From: a virus
DNA length: 27,589 bases
Reading direction: 5' to 3' (one strand)
IMG/VR virus record: IMGVR_UViG_3300025141_000588
Location: 1 to 27,589 of that record
In this document: positions 5,859-26,706 of the stretch, piece by piece
How positions within the stretch are numbered: position 1 is the first letter of the stretch
Layout of the letters: each line of letters begins with the position of its first letter
Translations under genes and position numbers: made by a program
Notes under the pieces: generated by a model
Seen by the model: the letters and a program-made list of their open reading frames with translations, nothing else
Told to the model about the DNA's origin: nothing
Database searches by the model: none

Positions 5859-6605
5859 CTAACTCGCAAACAATTCATCAAAACTTTTTTTGAGATTGTC
5901 TACTTGTTTTTGTTCATCTTTTGTTTTTGGAACTTTTGTATTAATTGGTTCACTTGATTCCATACCCCTATTCCATTGGTCGGATTCAATATGAGTCGCC
6001 ATCATATCAGCTTGATGTAATATGTAAGCCATATTGGTTCTTAATCCAAAGTCAGGATTGTAAGACATCAAATATGCTTTATTAGCTTCGTCATATAAAC
6101 CATCTGTTAATTTAATTCCAATGTATTCTTTGTCCGTAACCTTAACACCATAATGTTGAAGTAACCACAATCCTCTATCAGGTACTTTCATATATTGAAG
6201 TGCTGGATTGTGAGTATAAATTTCATCACGATTTTTTCTATGCCAATCTGATGTTTGTGGAATGTAATAGTCGTGTTCCAAATCACCAACCTTACCTAAG
6301 TCGTGATGTAAAGCAGCAAAGACCAATTCTTCATCCGTGAAGTTTATCTCTGCTCCATTCTTTTCCCACAATTGTTTTAACTCAAGTGAGTGACTTACAA
6401 TGTGAAGAATGTGTTCAACATATCCACCCGGCATCGCATTGTGATAATGTCCTTTAGCACTCGCCGGTGCAAACATCATTCTGTCTTGGAAATCATTATA
6501 GAACTTTAAAAGATTATCTCTTCTGTCATCACCAATGTGTGCATTAATAACATCTATTAATGTATTCCAATTGTTTTGTATTTCATCTGCTGTTAGTTTT
6601 TTCAT
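5859..6605 (-). CDS. HD-domain metal-dependent phosphohydrolase
   Basis: 248 residues from the ATG at 6605, preceded by GGAGAGA; an in-frame GTG at 6620 lies inside the upstream gene. HD-type ligands are in order: H53 and H65 in HYHNAMPGGYVEH, and the H-D pair in LHHDLGK (about 100-105), with further His residues at about 130-160. The HNAMPGGYVEH spacing resembles the HD domain of the YhaM 3'-5' exoribonuclease group and of phage HD nucleotidases. The substrate (nucleotide or nucleic acid) cannot be told. It is the third gene of the DruA-like/glycosyltransferase operon, overlapping the glycosyltransferase gene by 4 nt. Confidence 0.75.
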   Translation of the reverse strand: MKKLTADEIQNNWNTLIDVINAHIGDDRRDNLLKFYNDFQDRMMFAPASAKGHYHNAMPGGYVEHILHIVSHSLELKQLWEKNGAEINFTDEELVFAALHHDLGKVGDLEHDYYIPQTSDWHRKNRDEIYTHNPALQYMKVPDRGLWLLQHYGVKVTDKEYIGIKLTDGLYDEANKAYLMSYNPDFGLRTNMAYILHQADMMATHIESDQWNRGMESSEPINTKVPKTKDEQKQVDNLKKSFDELFAS

Positions 6606-7969
6606 TTGTTTTCTCTCCACTCATAACCATATTTGGTAAATTTAATTTCTTTATATTTTCTTAAAGCATTTCTATAAGGACTGAATTTAATTCTAACACC
6701 CCAACCAAGATAATCCAATATATTTTTCTTGGTTACAAAACCTTTGTCTTTAATAAAGTCTTTTATTTTTAAAACACTTTCTGTTTCACTAATTGAATCT
6801 AATTCAAACACATTTTTCCAACCACCAAACCAATTAGATATTCTTTCTTCCCAAATCATATTTTCTGCTAAATCACTTGTATCATATGTGATTGGATTAT
6901 CCAACATCTCATTAAACCTTTTAATAAAATCATTTCTATCATCATATAAATAAGGATATGGATTTTTAGCAACACTTGTCATTTCAGGATAACAAAGTTT
7001 GTTTGGTAACAAATAAGGAACACCAACTGAGAATCCATCAGTTGTTGAAATACTCCAAGCAGAATATGTTTGAAATGTTCCTACTCCAAATTTCATAGTA
7101 GATAAGAAGTCCATATATTCATCACGACTTTCACAATTAACTTTTTCATTCCACGGCCTATCAACTTGTGTTAGTGTTGTGTATACTTTGAAGTCTTGTC
7201 TTTGTTCCCATATTTCATCACATACTTTTACAAACCATTCCCAACCAGTATATCCAGCACCTCTGTGATTAAACACTACTGTCTTATCTTTATAATCTTT
7301 TCTTACATTAACTCTATCAACACCAAGATAATGTGGTTGAATAATTTTTTGTAATCTATCCAACACTCCTTGATTCCAATGTTTACTTGCTTCTTTGATT
7401 GTTAATTGTTTCAACCAATCACTATTTACTCCACACTCATCTTGCATTAATAAACCAGCAACACTCAAATATAATGCTCTCGCTGGGTCATCTTTATGTA
7501 TTCCACCTCTATCACCATAAGGAGCATTTTGTGGAACTTCAAACCAATGTGAGTAACCAATGAACTTTGGTGATAGGTTTGAATTGTTACTAAGACAATT
7601 TGCTATCTGTAAAGTATGTTCAGGTAGATGTGTATAAACAATATCAAAATCGTTATGTCTCCAATCAACATGCTTCATAAATTGTTTTGTATTGAAGTGT
7701 TGTCTCATTGTATTGATATAAGTTGGTAACTCATATATTCTTTGGTCAACATTTGGGAAGTCCAACGATTGAACAAATTCAGGTATCAATAAAGTGAAAT
7801 GAACTTTCCACCTTTTACTTATGAATGGTATAGTATGTCGTAACACTTCAACCAAACTATCTGCTTCTAAGTTTTTTCTATATGTGTAATTACCATAAAG
7901 TAATATCTTATAATCATATTGAGTACTTTTATTTTTATCTACAAAATAATCACTTACATCTTTTATCAT
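6602..7969 (-). CDS. GT-B-type glycosyltransferase, possible DNA-base or virion glycosylation
   Basis: 455 residues. The N-terminal Rossmann-like half has YKILLYGNYTYRKN, FDIVYTHLPEH and FIGYSHWFEVPQN. The C-terminal half has VVFNHRGAGYTGWEWFV, FKVYTTL, EYMDFLSTMKFGVGT and TTDGFSVGVPYLLPN, the layout of GT-B enzymes whose last motif contacts the nucleotide sugar. The last 60 residues look like a separate winged-helix-like module (FIKDKGFVTKKNILDYLGWG). T4 uses GT-B enzymes to glucosylate hydroxymethylcytosine. A DNA-modifying role is suggested here by the overlapping (4 nt) DUF4338-like partner, but surface glycan or protein targets are equally possible. Confidence 0.65.
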   Translation of the reverse strand: MIKDVSDYFVDKNKSTQYDYKILLYGNYTYRKNLEADSLVEVLRHTIPFISKRWKVHFTLLIPEFVQSLDFPNVDQRIYELPTYINTMRQHFNTKQFMKHVDWRHNDFDIVYTHLPEHTLQIANCLSNNSNLSPKFIGYSHWFEVPQNAPYGDRGGIHKDDPARALYLSVAGLLMQDECGVNSDWLKQLTIKEASKHWNQGVLDRLQKIIQPHYLGVDRVNVRKDYKDKTVVFNHRGAGYTGWEWFVKVCDEIWEQRQDFKVYTTLTQVDRPWNEKVNCESRDEYMDFLSTMKFGVGTFQTYSAWSISTTDGFSVGVPYLLPNKLCYPEMTSVAKNPYPYLYDDRNDFIKRFNEMLDNPITYDTSDLAENMIWEERISNWFGGWKNVFELDSISETESVLKIKDFIKDKGFVTKKNILDYLGWGVRIKFSPYRNALRKYKEIKFTKYGYEWRENK

Positions 7970-9162
7970 CTACCTACTTCTCCTAAATATTTTTCTTTAC
8001 ATTGTTCCCAAGACATACCCAATATATCTGAGTAGTATAACATTTCAGGCTTCAATCTATTTTCTGTATGTAATTTAGTATATCTTTTAATTGCTTTTCT
8101 TTTCCACCATTTATTAATGTATTCAGAACCTTGAGCAAACTTTGGTCTCATAACTAAATCACTATCATCAATCTCACCTCTTAAAAAGTCTCTTCCGTTT
8201 TCATAAAATGAACTGAAGTAAACTCCTCGTTTAAATCCGTGATTGTAATGTGATTTAACAATTCCTAATTCTTTAAACATATATGAAATCAATGTTTGTT
8301 TAACTCCTGTTGGAGGACCTGATACACCTTCTTTCGGTGTCATAATTCTTTTATAATCATCAGCTCTCTCATCTTTCATCCATTCAAGCCATGGCTTATA
8401 AACTGAATCATCAGGCTTCAATGCAATCTTACCAGCAGATTCACCAAGTGTTTTCCATAAAGGGATTCCATTATACATTGAATGAACACCATAAAGAGCT
8501 GTGGTAGTTAATCCAATTAATTCGTCACCATAAGTTTTCTTCCAATGAGCTCTGAGAGATTCATCAGTTAATAACATAGCAACTAATTTACCACCAAGAA
8601 AGTTAAATCCAAATGGTTGAGTTGCTACAATAGATGTTCCAATACTTGTACATCTTAATTTACCATCTTTAAATTTATTATCTTTAGTCCAACCAATGTA
8701 ATCATCTCTAACACCAAGTGATGTAATATCTGAACCCAATGACATCATACCTAAAACTTTATTAGTATTTCTATCTTTAGCAATCACTTTAATGTTTCTT
8801 CCTGGATTAGCTACATATTCCATTGAATGGATTAATCTTCTAAGAAGTGTCCAATTCTCAACCAATTGTTGATTCTTGTTATCTACGATTTCAACATAAG
8901 GGTCAAGATTTTCTATTTCAGATATTGTTAATTCTAAATTATTTATATCTGTTGGTTTCCAAATCTTCTTATTAAATAAATCAAACTTATAAGCATATTT
9001 TTGAAAGTCAGGATTCTTATTGAACTCCTGCCACTTCTTATAAAGTGTTTGTTCTTCAACAGACATAGATTTCAACATATCTAAATTATCTATGAACTCT
9101 TGTTTCTTCTCTTCGTAGTTAAATTCTTCTTTTACTTCTTCAAAAAAATTATCAAATGACAT
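7966..9162 (-). CDS. DUF4338/DruA-like (GNAT-like fold) protein
   Basis: 398 residues. The central block (about 125-235: KVLGMMSLGSD, DDYIGWTKDNK, LRCTSIGTSIVATQPFGFN, GGKLVAMLLTDESLRAHW, ELIGLTTTALYG) follows the order of motifs I associate with DUF4338, the family of the Druantia protein DruA. That order is gly-rich strand, then IGWs, then the nuclear NSRFLI-like strand and a helix. The fold reads as acyltransferase-like. The role is unproven. It is first in an operon with the glycosyltransferase (4-nt ATGA overlap), HD hydrolase and gp55, driven by the promoter at 9186-9214. Start supported by AGGA 7-8 nt upstream. The family link is from memory of motif order and needs a profile search. 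Confidence 0.5.
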   Translation of the reverse strand: MSFDNFFEEVKEEFNYEEKKQEFIDNLDMLKSMSVEEQTLYKKWQEFNKNPDFQKYAYKFDLFNKKIWKPTDINNLELTISEIENLDPYVEIVDNKNQQLVENWTLLRRLIHSMEYVANPGRNIKVIAKDRNTNKVLGMMSLGSDITSLGVRDDYIGWTKDNKFKDGKLRCTSIGTSIVATQPFGFNFLGGKLVAMLLTDESLRAHWKKTYGDELIGLTTTALYGVHSMYNGIPLWKTLGESAGKIALKPDDSVYKPWLEWMKDERADDYKRIMTPKEGVSGPPTGVKQTLISYMFKELGIVKSHYNHGFKRGVYFSSFYENGRDFLRGEIDDSDLVMRPKFAQGSEYINKWWKRKAIKRYTKLHTENRLKPEMLYYSDILGMSWEQCKEKYLGEVGR

Positions 9163-9185
9163 ATTTATTCCTATTCATAATATAC

Positions 9186-9214
9186 AATATACACATTATA
9201 TTTCAATTATACAA
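9186..9214 (-). promoter_or_regulatory. Sigma70-like promoter of the DruA-like/gp55 operon
   Basis: Minus strand: TTGTAT (9214-9209), 17-nt spacer, TATATT (9191-9186), about 24 nt upstream of the ATG at 9162. An A-tract followed by GCTTG precedes the -35, as at 10615-10644 and 14469-14498. Confidence 0.55.
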
Positions 9215-9229
9215 GCTTTTTTTTTTCTT

Positions 9230-9247
9230 TGTTACAAATTATTACAA
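9230..9247 (-). repeat. TTGTAACA-type direct repeat pair (possible operator)
   Basis: Minus strand: TTGTAATA and TTGTAACA with starts 10 bp apart, immediately upstream of the A-tract of the promoter at 9186-9214. Same architecture as the plus-strand pairs at 18665 and 19877. Confidence 0.45.
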
Positions 9248-9318
9248 TTTTTTTCATCGTTTTCTGGAAAACTATACTAATTATAGATCAATTAAGCTAA
9301 TTAATAATTAAATAATGA

Positions 9319-9663
9319 TCATAATAACTGTAAGATCATTATAATAATAGCTAACAGTATAGTAACCAAAGTTTTCAAAGTAATAACCTCCCCGAGATAC
9401 AGCCAAGTCATAATTGGAAAAGTTAACATTGAAGTTGCAAATCCCATAAATCTCACAGCCCACAGATTTCCAAATCCCTGATAACCTACCTTTGTAGCAT
9501 ACCAAAATAATAAACTAATAGGAATACCTAATAAAGACATAATCCACATAGATTTAGTACCTTTAGCCCAATCCCAAACAAGTTGGGAATTGAGCTGATA
9601 CCATATCAGAATATTGTTTAATAAAAATATTCCTATAGTTAATACAATATATTTATTTATCAC
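9319..9663 (-). CDS. Small multidrug-resistance/EamA-like four-helix membrane protein
   Basis: 114 residues starting at GTG (GTGA overlap with the upstream stop). Four hydrophobic helices are visible at about 4-22, 38-56, 66-86 and 92-113. The last two (RFMGFATSMLTFPIMTWLYL then GEVITLKTLVTILLAIIIMI) resemble the conserved end of small multidrug-resistance or half-EamA transporters, including a Gly-Glu between helices. Family length (about 105-115) fits. The usual membrane-embedded Glu in helix 1 is not evident, so transport is not assured. It ends the operon starting at 10587. Confidence 0.45.
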   Translation of the reverse strand: MINKYIVLTIGIFLLNNILIWYQLNSQLVWDWAKGTKSMWIMSLLGIPISLLFWYATKVGYQGFGNLWAVRFMGFATSMLTFPIMTWLYLGEVITLKTLVTILLAIIIMILQLL

Positions 9664-20019: not shown

Positions 20020-20371
20020 ATTAATGGATATATTAAACGAAGCTGATTACTTAAAAGATGCTATGAATAATGGTAAAAAAATATTCAAGCAATTACAAAA
20101 GATGTATCCAGATATACCAAAGTTTCCATTAATATTTAAAAATTTAAGAGGTAGAGGAACTGGATTTCTAACTACAAGAAGAATTGGTGGTAGAGATGTT
20201 CCAATAAAGATAACAGTTGATAGTTCTGGTATGACATCATATGATGCTGATTATGGAGTATGTCATGAATTTGCTCACGCAATATTAGGATACACAAAAG
20301 GAAATTTGGGTCATAATAGAGAACACGATAATTTAACATATAAGTTAGCAAAAAAGTTTGGATTGGCTTAA
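20012..20371 (+). CDS. Zincin-type metallopeptidase with capsid-targeting-like N-terminus
   Basis: 119 residues from a GTG at 20012; an ATG at 20024 is the alternative. The HExxH motif is VCHEFAHAILG (85-89), followed by GHNREHD, which could provide the third zinc ligand, as in SprT/M48-like small zincins. The first residues MIKLMDILNE|A parallel those of the next gene (MIHLTTLLAE|A) over exactly ten residues. This supports the GTG start. They resemble T4 capsid-targeting sequences cut by the prohead protease after (I/L)-x-E. It might therefore be packaged and injected. No inhibitor or substrate is evident. Confidence 0.6.
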   Translation: MIKLMDILNEADYLKDAMNNGKKIFKQLQKMYPDIPKFPLIFKNLRGRGTGFLTTRRIGGRDVPIKITVDSSGMTSYDADYGVCHEFAHAILGYTKGNLGHNREHDNLTYKLAKKFGLA

Positions 20372-20372
20372 A

Positions 20373-21479
20373 ATGATACACCTAACTACATTACTAGCAG
20401 AAGCCAAACTCAAACTAAACATACCTTCCGATATAAAGAAACTCCACAAATTATTTAAGAAGAATGGTAAACAACTTTATGTTGTTGGTGGTGCTGTTCG
20501 TGATGCTATATTGGGTAAGAGTCCTAAAGACTTTGACTTAACCACAGATGCTAAACCTGATGAAGTGTTGGACATAGCTAAACAAGGTGGATTCAAATCA
20601 GTAGAGGTTGGAAAACAATTCGGTGTTGTGATAATAGGTGGACACGAGATTGCTACATTCAGAAAAGATATAGGTAAGGGAAGAAGACCTGATGCTGTTG
20701 ACTTCACAGATATTAAAGGTGATGTTAAGCGTAGGGACTTAACCATTAATGCTTTGTTCTACGATATAGGTAAGAAACAAATCGTTGACTTAGTCGGTGG
20801 TATAGCTGACTTGAAGAAAAAGAAAATCAGAACCGTTGGTAAAGCAGAGGATAGATTTGATGAAGACCCACTTCGTAAGTTAAGAGCCGTTAGGTTCGCT
20901 GGTAGTGTTGGTGGTAAGATGACTAAGGATACTTGGGCTGCACTTAAACAGAACTCCGATATATCAGGAGTAAGTGCGGAACGAATAAGAGATGAATTTA
21001 TCAAAGGTGTCACCAAAGCTAAAAAAGTTCCCAACTATTTTAAAATGTTAAAAACTTTAGGAATGTTTAAACAAATCTTTCCTGGATTAAGTGTGTTACA
21101 TCAAAAATTAAATACCAATGATTATAAATTACAGATAGCTTATATGTTACAAACTAATGATAAGGATAAAATTAAATCTAAACTGAATAGTTTAAAGTAT
21201 ACTAATGTAGAGGTTAATGATATATGGTTGTTGATACATATGTCAAGACCAGCTGAAGTAATTAAGGACTTACCTACATTTAAAAAATTACAATCCAATA
21301 GTAAGTTAACTACATCACAGATTAAAGAGTGGGGTAAGATAAATTCAAGTAAGTATGTTACTCAATTATGGAATTGGAAGTTATCCATTACAGCAAAAGA
21401 TGCTATGTCTAAAGGATTAAAGGGTAAAGATATTGGTGACTACATCAAGGATGAAGAAGAAAAACTATTCCTCAGTTGA
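20373..21479 (+). CDS. CCA-adding/poly(A) polymerase-type nucleotidyltransferase
   Basis: 368 residues from the ATG at 20373 (an upstream in-frame TTG overlaps the previous gene). Class II tRNA nucleotidyltransferase motifs are complete: GGAVRD (39-44), DFDLTTDA with catalytic D53 and D55, RRDLTINALFYD (120-131), the EDPLRKLRAVRFA arginine-rich motif, and GVSAERIRDEF. The C-terminus (KGLKGKDIGDYIKDEEE) matches the tail of such enzymes, so it appears full length. It would repair or add tRNA 3' CCA ends, or add A tails. The first ten residues, MIHLTTLLAE, may be a removable capsid-targeting sequence. The gene ends 15 nt inside the convergent gene 21465-22049. Confidence 0.88.
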   Translation: MIHLTTLLAEAKLKLNIPSDIKKLHKLFKKNGKQLYVVGGAVRDAILGKSPKDFDLTTDAKPDEVLDIAKQGGFKSVEVGKQFGVVIIGGHEIATFRKDIGKGRRPDAVDFTDIKGDVKRRDLTINALFYDIGKKQIVDLVGGIADLKKKKIRTVGKAEDRFDEDPLRKLRAVRFAGSVGGKMTKDTWAALKQNSDISGVSAERIRDEFIKGVTKAKKVPNYFKMLKTLGMFKQIFPGLSVLHQKLNTNDYKLQIAYMLQTNDKDKIKSKLNSLKYTNVEVNDIWLLIHMSRPAEVIKDLPTFKKLQSNSKLTTSQIKEWGKINSSKYVTQLWNWKLSITAKDAMSKGLKGKDIGDYIKDEEEKLFLS

Positions 21480-22150: not shown

Positions 22151-22516
22151 TTATAAATTTTTTATTTTATTTTCTAATTCTTCTATTGTAGATGCTTGGT
22201 CTTCTTTACTTCTGTTACGATTGAATTGTTTTATTCTCCACCCACTTTCATTCCTATTATCAATAGCTTCCATTTCTTCTTTCGTTCTTCCATCACCAAA
22301 CTCTGTATTGTATGGGTAGTCATCTTCCCATAAGTCAAAATTATCTTTTAGAAAATTAACTCCTCTACTCAACGCCCATTCAGCAGACCTTGAGTCAAAC
22401 CTATTATAACCTTCAAGTACTTTTATAGCTTCTTCTATAACTTCTCTCACCAATACTTGATGCATATCATTACCTTTATAACTTAATTCAATACCATCTT
22501 TGTTTTTATACTTCAT
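22151..22516 (-). CDS. Unknown protein, last gene of the Mom-like operon
   Basis: 121 residues from the ATG at 22516, chosen because GGAAGG lies upstream and the start overlaps the stop of the preceding small gene (ATGA). N-terminal YKNKDGIELSYKGNDMHQVL, a helical middle (VREVIEEAIKVLEGYNRF, SAEWALSRGVNFL) and a charged end with a short coiled coil (TIEELENKIKNL). Acidic and aromatic residues around 70-85 (LWEDDYPYN). No family recognised. Confidence 0.5.
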   Translation of the reverse strand: MKYKNKDGIELSYKGNDMHQVLVREVIEEAIKVLEGYNRFDSRSAEWALSRGVNFLKDNFDLWEDDYPYNTEFGDGRTKEEMEAIDNRNESGWRIKQFNRNRSKEDQASTIEELENKIKNL

Positions 22517-22689
22517 ACTTTTACCTTCCTTAAAAAAACCCATACACCTATATTGATTGAACCTATTATAAGATTGAACAAACTATGTCCACTACTGAAT
22601 AAGTATATTCCATATATTCCTATAACTAAGTTTAACCATAATGTCATTTTAAATAACTCAATATTATCCTCATTCACATCTAACTTCAT
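22513..22689 (-). CDS. Small two-helix membrane protein in the Mom-like operon
   Basis: 58 residues. Acidic N-terminus (MKLDVNEDNIE), two hydrophobic segments (MTLWLNLVIGIYGIYLF and LFNLIIGSINIGVWVFL) and a basic end (RKVKV). Start overlaps the stop of the Mom-like gene upstream (ATGA) and its stop overlaps the next start (ATGA), which is strong support for translation. Function unknown. Confidence 0.55.
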   Translation of the reverse strand: MKLDVNEDNIELFKMTLWLNLVIGIYGIYLFSSGHSLFNLIIGSINIGVWVFLRKVKV

Positions 22690-23426
22690 TTAACTGGCTC
22701 CATTCTTATTATCTCCGATTCGTTTGTATCTCTTGACTTTGGATATGGTAAGGTTTCGTGTTTCAATGTTTTCATTATCTTCTTCTTATGTTTCTTATTA
22801 GCCAAAATATAAACATATCTATGTTTCTGTAATTCTTTTCTTATCCAAAATGTTTCAGTAACTTGTTTCTGTATTTCATATGGGTCATTGGTTTTGTAAT
22901 GTGGGAAGATAGTTCTTCCATGTATCCATCTACCATCTGGTTCAAACTTAAATATCCAACCATCATTCCAACGATTATTGTTACCTTGATAAATCCAATT
23001 CGTTGCTTGATAGATTGTTCCACTATGTCCTTCAACAGGAGAAGCGTATGATATTAAGGCTTTGATTTCGGGTTTGTTTTTTCGTAACCAATTAAAGGAT
23101 TGAGATATAAACCAACTTTCAATATTACTACCATAACCATCATATATAAATAGTCGTGTTAGTTCTAAAACTTCCGTTCTTTTTATTTCATCTGATATGG
23201 ATTGTCCAGTCAATCTTCCTATTGGGTCACCATATACAATAACACCAATCATCTTCTCTTCTGCTTCGTCAAAGAATGAATGTTGTTTACCTGTATCAAT
23301 AAACAAACCTAATGCTACTGAACACTTAGTCCATAGTTTAGAGTAATGGTATTTAACAACCATCTTCTTAGCCGTTGGTTTATCTATTTGTCTGATAGAT
23401 AGTTTAGTTGTATCGCAATATTTCAT
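22686..23426 (-). CDS. Mom-like DNA-modification acyltransferase, paralogue 1 (conserved Asp replaced)
   Basis: 246 residues. Phage Mu Mom uses a GNAT-like fold to convert adenine in DNA to a carbamoylmethyl form that resists restriction. The family pattern is present: H27-Y28 (KYHYSK), ELTRL with R91, NIESWFISQS, then ISYASPVEGHSGTIYQATNW with Y139. Spacings R to acid (38) and acid to Tyr (10) equal those I recall for the essential Mu residues R101, D139 and Y149. Here the Asp position is Ser129 (SYASP), unlike the other three copies, so activity or chemistry may differ. The start overlaps paralogue 2 by 23 nt, with AAGGA upstream. The N-terminus (KYCDTTK) and C-terminus (LPYPK) are shared with paralogues 3 and 2 respectively. 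Confidence 0.65.
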   Translation of the reverse strand: MKYCDTTKLSIRQIDKPTAKKMVVKYHYSKLWTKCSVALGLFIDTGKQHSFFDEAEEKMIGVIVYGDPIGRLTGQSISDEIKRTEVLELTRLFIYDGYGSNIESWFISQSFNWLRKNKPEIKALISYASPVEGHSGTIYQATNWIYQGNNNRWNDGWIFKFEPDGRWIHGRTIFPHYKTNDPYEIQKQVTETFWIRKELQKHRYVYILANKKHKKKIMKTLKHETLPYPKSRDTNESEIIRMEPVK

Positions 23427-24114
23427 CTTTGTCCTTTGGATAAGGTAGTACTTTATATTTAAGATTACTCATCAATTCTTTTCTTTCTTTTTTATTTTTT
23501 GCTAACAAATAAATGTATCTATACTTTCTTGGTGTTCTTCTCATCTTAACACCTGGAAATAATTTCTTAATTTCTTCTGTCTTTCTTGTTCCATAATTAA
23601 GAACTGTGTTTCTTGGATGTTGCCATTTACCATCAATATAAAATTGATAACCACCAACCTTATCTGTAATACCACAATATAACCAATTCGTTGATTGGTA
23701 GATTGTTCCTATATGTCCTTGCTCTGGGTCTGAAAAAGCAATTAAACATTTTATATGAGGGTAATTTTCTTTTATGTATTTAATACTTTGTCCTATACAA
23801 TAACTTTCCATATTCTTACCAGCCCAATCAAAACTAAATAATCTAACTAATTCAAAATAATCACCTGGCAAACTATTTAACATTTTATCGTGAGATATTG
23901 AAGCTCTACCATATACCATTACTGTATTTAATTTACCATCAATATAAAATCCTAAACATATGTTTGCTCTATTTAATGTATGAGTATAATGGTGTTTAGA
24001 AATAATATCTCTAGCTAACTTAAATGGTATTACTTCCATTGTTATTCGTTCTTTATTTAATTCACCCATCTCAACAAATGAATTAGGTGCACCTTTCCAA
24101 AAACCATTACTCAT
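23404..24114 (-). CDS. Mom-like DNA-modification acyltransferase, paralogue 2
   Basis: 236 residues. Key positions are intact: H42-Y43 (KHHYTHT), R91 in ELVRLF, D129 in IAFSDPEQGH and Y139 in GTIYQSTNW; NMESYCIGQS between them is conserved in all four copies. A 25-residue N-terminal extension (MSNGFWKGAPNSF) is unique to this copy. The end has a Lys/Arg-rich segment (MRRTPRKYRYIYLLAKNKK) then LPYPKDKDE, as in paralogue 1. It starts 8 nt inside the preceding 57-residue gene. DNA is the presumed substrate; the modification it makes cannot be inferred from sequence. Confidence 0.7.
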   Translation of the reverse strand: MSNGFWKGAPNSFVEMGELNKERITMEVIPFKLARDIISKHHYTHTLNRANICLGFYIDGKLNTVMVYGRASISHDKMLNSLPGDYFELVRLFSFDWAGKNMESYCIGQSIKYIKENYPHIKCLIAFSDPEQGHIGTIYQSTNWLYCGITDKVGGYQFYIDGKWQHPRNTVLNYGTRKTEEIKKLFPGVKMRRTPRKYRYIYLLAKNKKERKELMSNLKYKVLPYPKDKDEILRYN

Positions 24115-24280
24115 TTAATTTCCTATTTAGAAATCTCTGCCAATCTCTTGCATCATTTTCTGCAAATATCCAAATGGGTTCTACTCCCATATCAACAGCA
24201 CTTTCTTCTGCTGCGTCAAAATCTCCACAATCACATAAATCCCACAACTTACCTTTTGAATCTAAACAAAAATATTTCAT
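24107..24280 (-). CDS. Small acidic protein between Mom-like genes
   Basis: 57 residues with a strong AGGAGG ribosome binding site. MKYFCLDSKGKLWDLCDCGD carries three Cys (C5, C16, C18); the rest is acidic and aromatic (VEPIWIFAENDARDWQRFL). It reads like a compact alpha/beta domain with a possible metal or disulfide site. It overlaps the start of paralogue 2 by 8 nt. Unknown family. Confidence 0.55.
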   Translation of the reverse strand: MKYFCLDSKGKLWDLCDCGDFDAAEESAVDMGVEPIWIFAENDARDWQRFLNRKLNE

Positions 24281-24289
24281 ATGTTCCTC

Positions 24290-24970
24290 CTAACTATACT
24301 CCAACAATGGATGTTTCAGTTCTTTAATTAATCTCTTCTTCTCTTTCTTACTACAAAGGAAATAGATATATCTATGTTTCCTTAATTTCTTTTTATACTC
24401 CATATCAGGTATCTTATCCAACACACCCTTTAATCCATTAGTTCCAAGTTGTTCACCAATCGCTCTATCGGATAACCAATTGTCTGTATTGGGATAACGA
24501 TACATATAAGCATCAGCAGCTCCTATTTCATTACCTTGATACAACCAATTAGATGCTCGGTAGATAATACCTTTATGATTAGCAGCTGGGTCTGCATATG
24601 ATATAACAACCTTTGTTTGTGGTGAATCTTTCTTTAACATCTTCAATGTCTGAGCTATACAATAGGATTCTATATTCTTACCATAACCATCTTCAATCCA
24701 TAATCGTTTCAACTCCAATACATCTATATCAGTAAACTCTCCACATATGGATTTAACAACTCTAAACCCAACGGGATTACCATAGATAACACAACCAATT
24801 AATTTTAAGTTATCACTATCAAAGAACTTGTGTTCACCATCTCTATAGTATATAGCATAGATGTCTGATGAAGCTGTCCAAGTATTTGCATAATGTTTAT
24901 TCATTATCATATCATAAACAATCTCTTTCTTAGTTCTCTCTATTACTATCTTGGATGTATCACAATACAT
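24290..24970 (-). CDS. Mom-like DNA-modification acyltransferase, paralogue 3
   Basis: 226 residues. H26-Y27 (NKHYANTW), R89 in ELKRLW, D127 in ISYADPAANH and Y137 in GIIYRASNWLYQG keep the Mu Mom spacing (38 and 10). The usual G-H-x-G is N-H-K-G here. The N-terminus MYCDTSK matches paralogue 1 (YCDTTK), so these two are the closest pair at that end. The C-terminal segment KKLRKHRYIYFLCSKKEKK is shared by all copies and is basic, as expected for DNA contact. It overlaps the 61-residue gene upstream by 11 nt. Confidence 0.7.
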   Translation of the reverse strand: MYCDTSKIVIERTKKEIVYDMIMNKHYANTWTASSDIYAIYYRDGEHKFFDSDNLKLIGCVIYGNPVGFRVVKSICGEFTDIDVLELKRLWIEDGYGKNIESYCIAQTLKMLKKDSPQTKVVISYADPAANHKGIIYRASNWLYQGNEIGAADAYMYRYPNTDNWLSDRAIGEQLGTNGLKGVLDKIPDMEYKKKLRKHRYIYFLCSKKEKKRLIKELKHPLLEYS

Positions 24971-25145
24971 ATTCTTCCCACAACTTATTAGCTTCTTTTA
25001 AAGTATTCTTTGTCATATTTGACATATTACCTTTTTCTAAATCTTCTATATGATACTTAACCCAATACCATTGTTCACGGCTTGTATCTTTATAATTATT
25101 TTCTATTCTATGTTTAAGTTTAATAAACTTTTCTTTAATCTTCAT
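24960..25145 (-). CDS. Small charged protein between Mom-like genes
   Basis: 61 residues, helical and charged (KIKEKFIKLKHRIENNY, REQWYWVKYHIEDLEKG, TLKEANKLWEEYVL). Overlaps both neighbours (ATGA with paralogue 4's stop, 11 nt with paralogue 3). No family recognised. Conceivably an accessory factor, but nothing in the sequence proves it. Confidence 0.5.
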   Translation of the reverse strand: MKIKEKFIKLKHRIENNYKDTSREQWYWVKYHIEDLEKGNMSNMTKNTLKEANKLWEEYVL

Positions 25146-25774
25146 TTCAACATTTTCTTTTTTAGTTTTTTATTTAGATAATATACATAAATGTTTTTGG
25201 GTTTTGTTTCTACAAAATAAATATCATCATCCTTTTTACCATTTTGTTTTTCTTCCCATCTTCTTTTTATAGCTCTAGCATATGGTCTTTTATTTCTAAT
25301 AGTTCTATCGTGGTATTGTTTACCATCTACCATTAAAGCTTGACCACTTGGTGTTTGTCCCATATTAATAAAGTTACTAGCTTTATAAACCACACCTTCG
25401 TGTCCTTGTTGTAAATCAGAATAAGATATAATAACTTCAGCGTCTGTATTTTGTTTTAACCACTTTAATGTTTTACCTATAAAGAAACTCTCTGTATTCG
25501 TAGGTGTATCATCTATACAACATAATCTTCTTAACTCCCAACATCTATCAGGATTATCTGGATGATATTTAGTAGCTGTGTTGGACATAGCTGGTTGTCC
25601 GTAAATCATACAACCAATCATTCGTGGTAATCCAAACTTACCATCAGGTGAATACAATGCAAAACATTGTCTATGTTGTATACCACCAGCGTAATGAGAG
25701 TAATGCCATTTCTCAATGAATGATGTAACAGTTTTCTTTGGAACAGGTTCTATTGTAAAATCACTTACTTTCAT
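25142..25774 (-). CDS. Mom-like DNA-modification acyltransferase, paralogue 4
   Basis: 210 residues, the most divergent copy. H24-Y25 (KWHYSHYAGG), R83 in ELRRL, D120 in ISYSDLQQGH and Y130 in GVVYKASNF are present; R to Asp is 37, one shorter than in the others. The strand-loop IGCMIYGQPA corresponds to the GNAT-like cofactor-binding strand (VIVYGDP in copy 1). It lacks the YCDT start. The C-terminus is basic (KRRWEEKQNGKKDDD, YYLNKKLKKKMLK). It overlaps the HNH gene by 14 nt, so the nuclease and this copy are coupled. Confidence 0.7.
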   Translation of the reverse strand: MKVSDFTIEPVPKKTVTSFIEKWHYSHYAGGIQHRQCFALYSPDGKFGLPRMIGCMIYGQPAMSNTATKYHPDNPDRCWELRRLCCIDDTPTNTESFFIGKTLKWLKQNTDAEVIISYSDLQQGHEGVVYKASNFINMGQTPSGQALMVDGKQYHDRTIRNKRPYARAIKRRWEEKQNGKKDDDIYFVETKPKNIYVYYLNKKLKKKMLK

Positions 25775-26273
25775 CTTTCCTTATCTTAGCTCTTTCACTA
25801 GCTTCTTTTTTAGTTTTCTTCTTATGACAATTATAACATAAGGTTTGTAGATTTTCTTCTTCCCAATATGTTAAATCAATCTCTTCAAAGGTTTTACCCT
25901 TTTGTTCCCACAATGGTCTGATGTGGTCTACATTCCATTTCTCATTATTCCTACGAGAACGCCAAGGAAATGATTCGTGACAATGAACACAATTCCCTTT
26001 ATCTCTTTTCCAAATATACTTTCGTGTTTCACTTGAATGGTAGATAAACATATACTCATCAGCACATTTACTATGCCAAGACTTTCGTTGATTAGTAAGG
26101 CCTGTCTTCTCACTCTTAATAAGATTACCACAAAATCTACACTTACCTTTCTTCTTCGTATAATAAGCTGTAGGTTTAGGTGGTATTCTATGTTCTTCTA
26201 AAAATACCTTAGACTCTTCTTTCTTTTTACCAAAGGTTCTCTTATGTCTTCTACTCCATCTTGATAAAGGCAT
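25761..26273 (-). CDS. HNH endonuclease with extra zinc finger
   Basis: 170 residues. Very basic N-terminus, a zinc finger C45-x2-C48 ... H67-x2-C70 (CRFCG, WHSKC), then a HNH/beta-beta-alpha nuclease: C95-x2-C98, NVDHIRPL with catalytic H117 in D116-H117, NLQTLCYNCHKKKT with N141 and C146-x2-C149. The additional finger is unusual for simple homing HNH proteins. It sits upstream of the Mom-like copies in one operon. A role in attacking DNA that lacks the phage modification, or simple mobility, is possible; neither is shown. Confidence 0.85.
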   Translation of the reverse strand: MPLSRWSRRHKRTFGKKKEESKVFLEEHRIPPKPTAYYTKKKGKCRFCGNLIKSEKTGLTNQRKSWHSKCADEYMFIYHSSETRKYIWKRDKGNCVHCHESFPWRSRRNNEKWNVDHIRPLWEQKGKTFEEIDLTYWEEENLQTLCYNCHKKKTKKEASERAKIRKDESK

Positions 26274-26505: not shown

Positions 26506-26706
26506 TTATTCCTTTCTTTGATGTGTCATTAATATATTAACAATGCCTGTAATGCATATACCACAAAAGGCTACAGGTAATTGTCCTATTTTACCTTGAA
26601 CACCACCTGGTATCGTATGTATATCAATATCACATATTTCACAAAAAGCAGGTGTGGGTTTATTATCTTTAACCTTACCTGATTTAAGATTTATTATCTT
26701 TACCAT
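26506..26706 (-). CDS. Small CxxC/CxxC zinc-binding-type protein
   Basis: 66 residues. FCEICDIDIH (C22-x2-C25) and FCGICITGI (C48-x2-C51) would bind one zinc. The short basic start (MVKIINLKSGKVKDNK) and the small size are typical of nucleic-acid-binding ribbons. In phage Mu a 62-residue zinc protein, Com, activates translation of mom. This gene lies in the Mom-like operon, but its Cys spacing differs and no homology is claimed. Confidence 0.55.
   Translation of the reverse strand: MVKIINLKSGKVKDNKPTPAFCEICDIDIHTIPGGVQGKIGQLPVAFCGICITGIVNILMTHQRKE

Follow-up and report, generated by a model that had tools for sequence, protein, structure and literature searches.

The window, i.e., the whole stretch of DNA that was analyzed, is a single-piece virus record 27,589 bases long. 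Among its genes are PhoH and a T4-like baseplate wedge gene, and its source is an uncultured phage, tailed and with T4-like baseplate genes. On the minus strand, four genes encoding Mom-type proteins (mom1 to mom4) lie in one operon, transcribed in the order HNH endonuclease, mom1, 61-aa ORF, mom2, 57-aa ORF, mom3, mom4, 58-aa ORF, and 130-aa ORF, as follows:

25761..26273, minus strand: HNH endonuclease, 170 aa (PF01844, E = 3.8e-7), with a 14-nt overlap with the start of mom1
25142..25774, minus strand: mom1, 210 aa, Mom clade A (PF25680, E = 2.7e-37; AF2 model with Foldseek; tree)
24960..25145, minus strand: 61-aa ORF with no family match, lying between mom1 and mom2 and overlapping each
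24290..24970, minus strand: mom2, 226 aa, Mom clade B (PF25680, E = 3.4e-37)
24107..24280, minus strand: 57-aa ORF between mom2 and mom3; no family match
23404..24114, minus strand: mom3, 236 aa, Mom clade C (PF25680, E = 8.3e-45); frame overlaps mom4 directly
22686..23426, minus strand: mom4, 246 aa, Mom clade D (PF25680, E = 1.3e-47); Ser129 at the D139-equivalent position
22513..22689, minus strand: 58-aa hydrophobic ORF with a 4-nt overlap with the end of mom4
22151..22543, minus strand: 130-aa ORF; no Pfam match

From end to end, adjacent frames overlap or almost touch, a layout like that of an operon with translational coupling. The initial annotation of four Mom-like ORFs of 210–246 aa in one operon was borne out, all four being minus-strand family members by profile. 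The copies were also described as interleaved with tiny ORFs, which is the case between mom1 and mom2 (61 aa) and between mom2 and mom3 (57 aa), whereas mom3 and mom4 overlap directly; the range 22151–25774, given for the four Mom genes, contains all of them but also takes in the non-Mom 130-aa and 58-aa ORFs. Among the fetched loci and contigs, which carry L numbers, the 61-aa ORF has a weak relative in L327 (30% over 61 aa), the 58-aa ORF has one adjoining mom4 in L006 (52%), and relatives of the 130-aa ORF adjoin mom in L005, L006, and L077. Upstream of the mom array, positions 26506–26706 of the window encode a 66-aa ORF with CxxC..CxxC spacing, similar in size to Mu Com, a relative of which is found upstream of mom in L007. 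On the opposite strand, positions 20358–21479 encode a nucleotidyltransferase of the poly(A)-polymerase/CCA-adding type, which is kept beside the Mom island in L005, L006, and L326.

The four proteins are genuine Mom proteins. Their scores against the Pfam Mom family (PF25680), 129–163 bits compared with a cut-off of 27.1, exclude a chance match; all four also match PHROG 1384 (E = 1e-44 to 1e-54), and a profile of the four copies returns one clear match among PDB sequences, namely Mu Mom (8bv8, E = 1.7e-27). AlphaFold (AF2) models of mom1 (pLDDT 93.7) and mom4 (pLDDT 92.2) likewise have 8bv8 as their best PDB match in Foldseek (E = 2.1e-12 and 3.0e-13, respectively), with general GNAT acetyltransferases weaker at about 1e-4 to 1e-5, and the models thus show a Mom/GNAT fold for these two proteins. 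Placement in an unrelated GNAT family, a check set in advance by the initial annotation, was not the result; profile and structure searches both put Mom first.

The motifs HY, ELxRL, NxES, and HxGxxYxxxN are present in all four copies as annotated. A further motif, S-Y/F-x-D-P, had also been assigned to all four, but mom4 reads ISYASP, mom3 reads AFSDP, and mom1 has SDL instead of DP. The Mu positions H48, Y49, R101, D139, and Y149, given in the initial annotation, are correct in the 231-residue numbering of Mu Mom (from NC_000929), which equals the longer numbering minus ten, and S114 also belongs to the set; the annotated spacings agree as well, with 38 residues from the Arg to the D139-equivalent position (37 in mom1) and 10 from that position to the Tyr. 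The Mu-type set is complete in mom1 (H24, Y25, R83, S96, D120, and Y130), mom2, and mom3, and the equivalents of H48, Y49, R101, S114, and Y149 are kept in all four copies, mom4 included. The statement that all four retain the essential Mu residues therefore stands for mom1–mom3 and fails for mom4, which has Ser in place of D139. We take D139 of Mu Mom to be catalytic, which rests in part on its conservation here: among 302 Mom sequences, the column holds Asp in 293, Asn in 5, and Ser in 4. The S114 position holds Ser in 301 of 302 aligned sequences and in mom1–mom4, and the PDB title of 8bv8 names an inactive mutant, S124A, which corresponds to S114 in the 231-residue numbering.

The four sequences with Ser at D139 are mom4 and its closest relatives in L005, L006, and L007 (89–94% identical), against which the dN/dS values of mom4 are 0.047/0.31, 0.049/0.64, and 0.072/0.985, respectively (ratio about 0.07–0.15). 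Since the Ser is common to three relatives and dN/dS is low over all of them, decay of mom4 after loss of D139 is ruled out. The five distinct genes with Asn at D139 (dN/dS about 0.05–0.08) each stand second in a Mom pair whose first gene bears Asp. Both D139-less lineages are under purifying selection, and the D139N lineage arose separately from the D139S lineage. Judged by descent, mom4 is a family member whose active-site position has departed from the Mom type; no Mom enzyme activity is claimed for it.

Pairwise identity among mom1–mom4 is 30–39%, and the closest relative of each lies outside the operon: in L075 for mom1 (about 80%), L010 for mom2 (79%), L081 for mom3 (58%), and L005 for mom4 (94%). 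A maximum-likelihood tree of 122 rows gives each copy a separate group (support A 97/96, B 100/100, C 100/100, and D 98/94). Local tandem duplication is ruled out because each copy has nearer relatives in other phages than among its neighbours in the operon, and the phylogeny shows four separate evolutionary origins, the set having been assembled from old lineages and not duplicated in place. The age and divergence of these lineages fit different specificities or roles.

The Mom set is accessory in this phage lineage, because the same site in relatives holds a DruA-like gene plus the D139S mom, the D139S mom alone, or other genes with no mom. L005 shares the HNH gene (82%) and the downstream genes with the window; between them mom4 is kept, and a 156-aa ORF and a DruA-like gene replace mom1–mom3. 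In L007, the D139S mom is present alone, with an abutting UvdE-like gene (the family being called on the L005 homologue). The same site in L326 (a 168.8 kb contig) and L324 is occupied by a 534-aa ORF and others, and neither contig contains a Mom gene anywhere. The HNH gene, which was assigned by profile and overlaps mom1, forms the left edge of the exchangeable island and has relatives in L005 and in the mom-less L324, L326, and L327. A role as a dedicated restriction partner of mom is not supported, since the HNH gene is kept without mom in contigs up to 168.8 kb.

The conserved 534-aa ORF of the mom-less contigs (L326:5531-7928 and L324:4794-7213) has no Pfam match, shows GHKL ATPase-like motifs by eye, and adjoins a DUF6445 protein in L326; the two are perhaps another exchangeable defence or counter-defence pair. 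Positions 7966–9162 of the window encode a DruA-like protein (PF14236, E = 6.9e-22, and PADLOC DruA models), i.e., a member of the Druantia defence family inside a phage. In 19 fetched loci, its relatives are found no more than 1.5 kb from Mom genes, with overlap in some cases and often directly after a clade D–clade E pair (L106, L280, L308, L300, and L301). Common ancestry of the DruA-like and Mom proteins, raised by one weak match in a small set (E = 1.7e-6), is unsupported, with a profile comparison probability of 0.7%. A 455-aa protein at 6602–7969 resembles GT-B glycosyltransferases by eye and has no sequence match in Pfam, PHROG, or PDB; relatives occur in 52 fetched loci, in 21 of the 52 within 1.5 kb of Mom genes, and the protein is possibly a further DNA-modification component.

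Tandem Mom sets, as pairs and several triples, are frequent in uncultured phage contigs, so the multi-Mom arrangement is not peculiar to this phage; the initial statement that Mu carries one mom stands. Distinct arrays in the fetched loci (letters denoting Mom clades) comprise 44 D-E, 5 D-E(D139N), 3 D-B-E, 2 A-B, and 2 A-D-E, together with B-D, D-C, B-A-x, and D-E-A once each, counts that represent what searches with queries drawn from the same clades reached and not an unbiased frequency. Furthermore, Moms of clades F and A lie 1.6–2.4 kb apart in 11 fetched loci, and one 113-kb contig has three scattered Mom genes; the largest array found is the four-gene mom1–mom4 set. A recount gave 50 distinct adjacent D-E pairs, with D first in all and overlapping frames in 32. 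Distances among the D copies track those among their E partners (Mantel r 0.56, a value reached in 0 of 2000 permutations), a correlation for which common phage ancestry alone could account. Among 50,697 cultured-phage records searched with three Mom queries (threshold E 1e-5), no tandem set was found, the 306, 234, and 241 matched records each having exactly one matching place, and nucleotide relatives in cultured phages were limited to short stretches. The Mom family is already known; in the open-licence papers searched, no description of multiple Mom genes or of D139-less members was found. Long forms were also observed: a 48-kb viral contig encodes a long multidomain Mom protein, a 948-residue frame that opens with a Mom domain (L323:1517-4360), and a cyanobacterial genome bin contains two divergent long Mom-like ORFs 1.6 kb apart (L213:4974-6248 and 7874-9385).

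We give roughly even odds (a probability of about 0.5) to the reading that the operon is an accessory, modular four-member set of Mom-type adenine modifiers that jointly mask more sites from host nucleases. By analogy with Mu Mom, the complete copies mom1–mom3 would attach a small group, of carbamoylmethyl or acyl type, to the N6 position of adenines in the phage's DNA. The copies may differ in recognised sequence context, in which case the set together would shield a larger number of adenines against restriction and other nucleases of the host, and different target contexts would explain why long-diverged copies were collected rather than duplicated. For the D139S copy, mom4, altered chemistry or a non-catalytic partner role is suggested, which is the least certain step. 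The modular reading is supported by the varied combinations in which the same clades occur elsewhere (D-E, D-B-E, B-D, A-B, D-C, A-D-E, and B-A-x), and protection of Mu DNA from restriction enzymes by Mom has been described (PMC6483171). Counting against it, Mu manages with one Mom. The divergence of the copies could instead mean separate acquisition without complementary function. Moreover, in close relatives the D139S mom is the only Mom found within incomplete genome fragments of 28–48 kb, a finding at odds both with simple redundancy and with any dependence on mom1–mom3.

The main rival is a heteromer, in which paralogues assemble, the D139-less members (mom4 and the D139N E-type) provide DNA binding, specificity, or regulation, and a D139-bearing partner catalyzes. 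Two independent D139-less lineages under purifying selection among 302 sequences, the placement of all five distinct D139N genes after a D139-bearing Mom, and the two Mom chains in 8bv8 speak for it, as does the use of Mom as a test case for homo-oligomer prediction (PMC13232217). We nevertheless regard it as rather unlikely; against it, D139 is present in both members of most D-E pairs and the closest mom4 relatives carry their D139S copy alone, the latter point not being decisive because those genomes are incomplete. That the copies transfer different groups, with loss of D139 marking a changed donor or reaction and several hypermodified adenines per genome, is less likely still: substitution of an otherwise almost invariant position in conserved proteins that keep S114, R101, Y149, H48, and Y49 speaks for such a change, but no donor-site signature separating the copies was found, and the literature searched does not establish where Mu itself obtains the transferred group.

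The varying content of the locus among relatives and the four separate origins would also be produced by an exchangeable island that acquires Mom genes horizontally, the copies acting together little or not at all. Operon packing with overlapping starts, four full-length ORFs, purifying selection on mom4, and a stable order in which D precedes E throughout 50 distinct pairs all point to retained function, which makes passive accumulation quite improbable. Most GNAT enzymes act on targets other than DNA, and Foldseek also returns general GNAT acetyltransferases, so the four proteins might act on protein, RNA, or a small molecule; Mom leads those matches by eight orders of magnitude for mom4 and seven for mom1, and the residue set is that of Mom, among them the Ser replaced by Ala in the mutant that the title of 8bv8 calls inactive, so that a non-DNA target seems very improbable indeed.

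Beyond this phage, multi-Mom operons might encode machines for adenine hypermodification that are hetero-oligomeric or use several chemistries. A conserved Mom lacking D139, evolved at least twice, would serve in them as a non-catalytic specificity subunit or carry out new chemistry; this broader proposal is tentative, and we lean against it. Mom is known from single-copy phages, and to our knowledge there is little understanding of its choice of target sequence. Natural operons that combine two to four diverged copies, two lineages devoid of the near-invariant Asp among them, offer material for testing specificity, partner use, and chemistry. They also point to layered adenine masking as a possibly commonplace means of counter-defence among uncultured phages, overlooked so far in culture collections.

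Mu Mom (PDB 8bv8; Mup55 of NC_000929; PF25680; PHROG 1384) is the closest known counterpart, with the family, the GNAT-type fold, and the status of phage accessory gene in common. Its residue set H48/Y49/R101/S114/D139/Y149 is complete in mom1–mom3, whereas mom4 has Ser at the D139 position; Mu has one mom, with com ahead of and overlapping it, whereas the present operon has four from separate clades and no readily recognisable Com. The single Moms of cultured phages, including Vibrio phage ICP1, Klebsiella K64-1/RaK2, Listeria, Enterococcus, and Polaribacter P12002L, belong to the same family, reaching 46% identity with mom1 and 41% with mom4, but have one matching place per record compared with four here. 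Mom-endonuclease fusions occur in jumbo phages (PMC7824862); a nuclease is likewise combined with Mom here, as the HNH gene overlaps mom1, but the two are unfused, and at this locus the HNH gene is retained even where mom is absent. In principle, the operon is also comparable with the paired DNA glucosyltransferases of phage T4, alpha-GT and beta-GT (PMC13216743), where two enzymes act on one phage genome for wider protection, although these are unrelated enzymes and their substrate is hydroxymethylcytosine.
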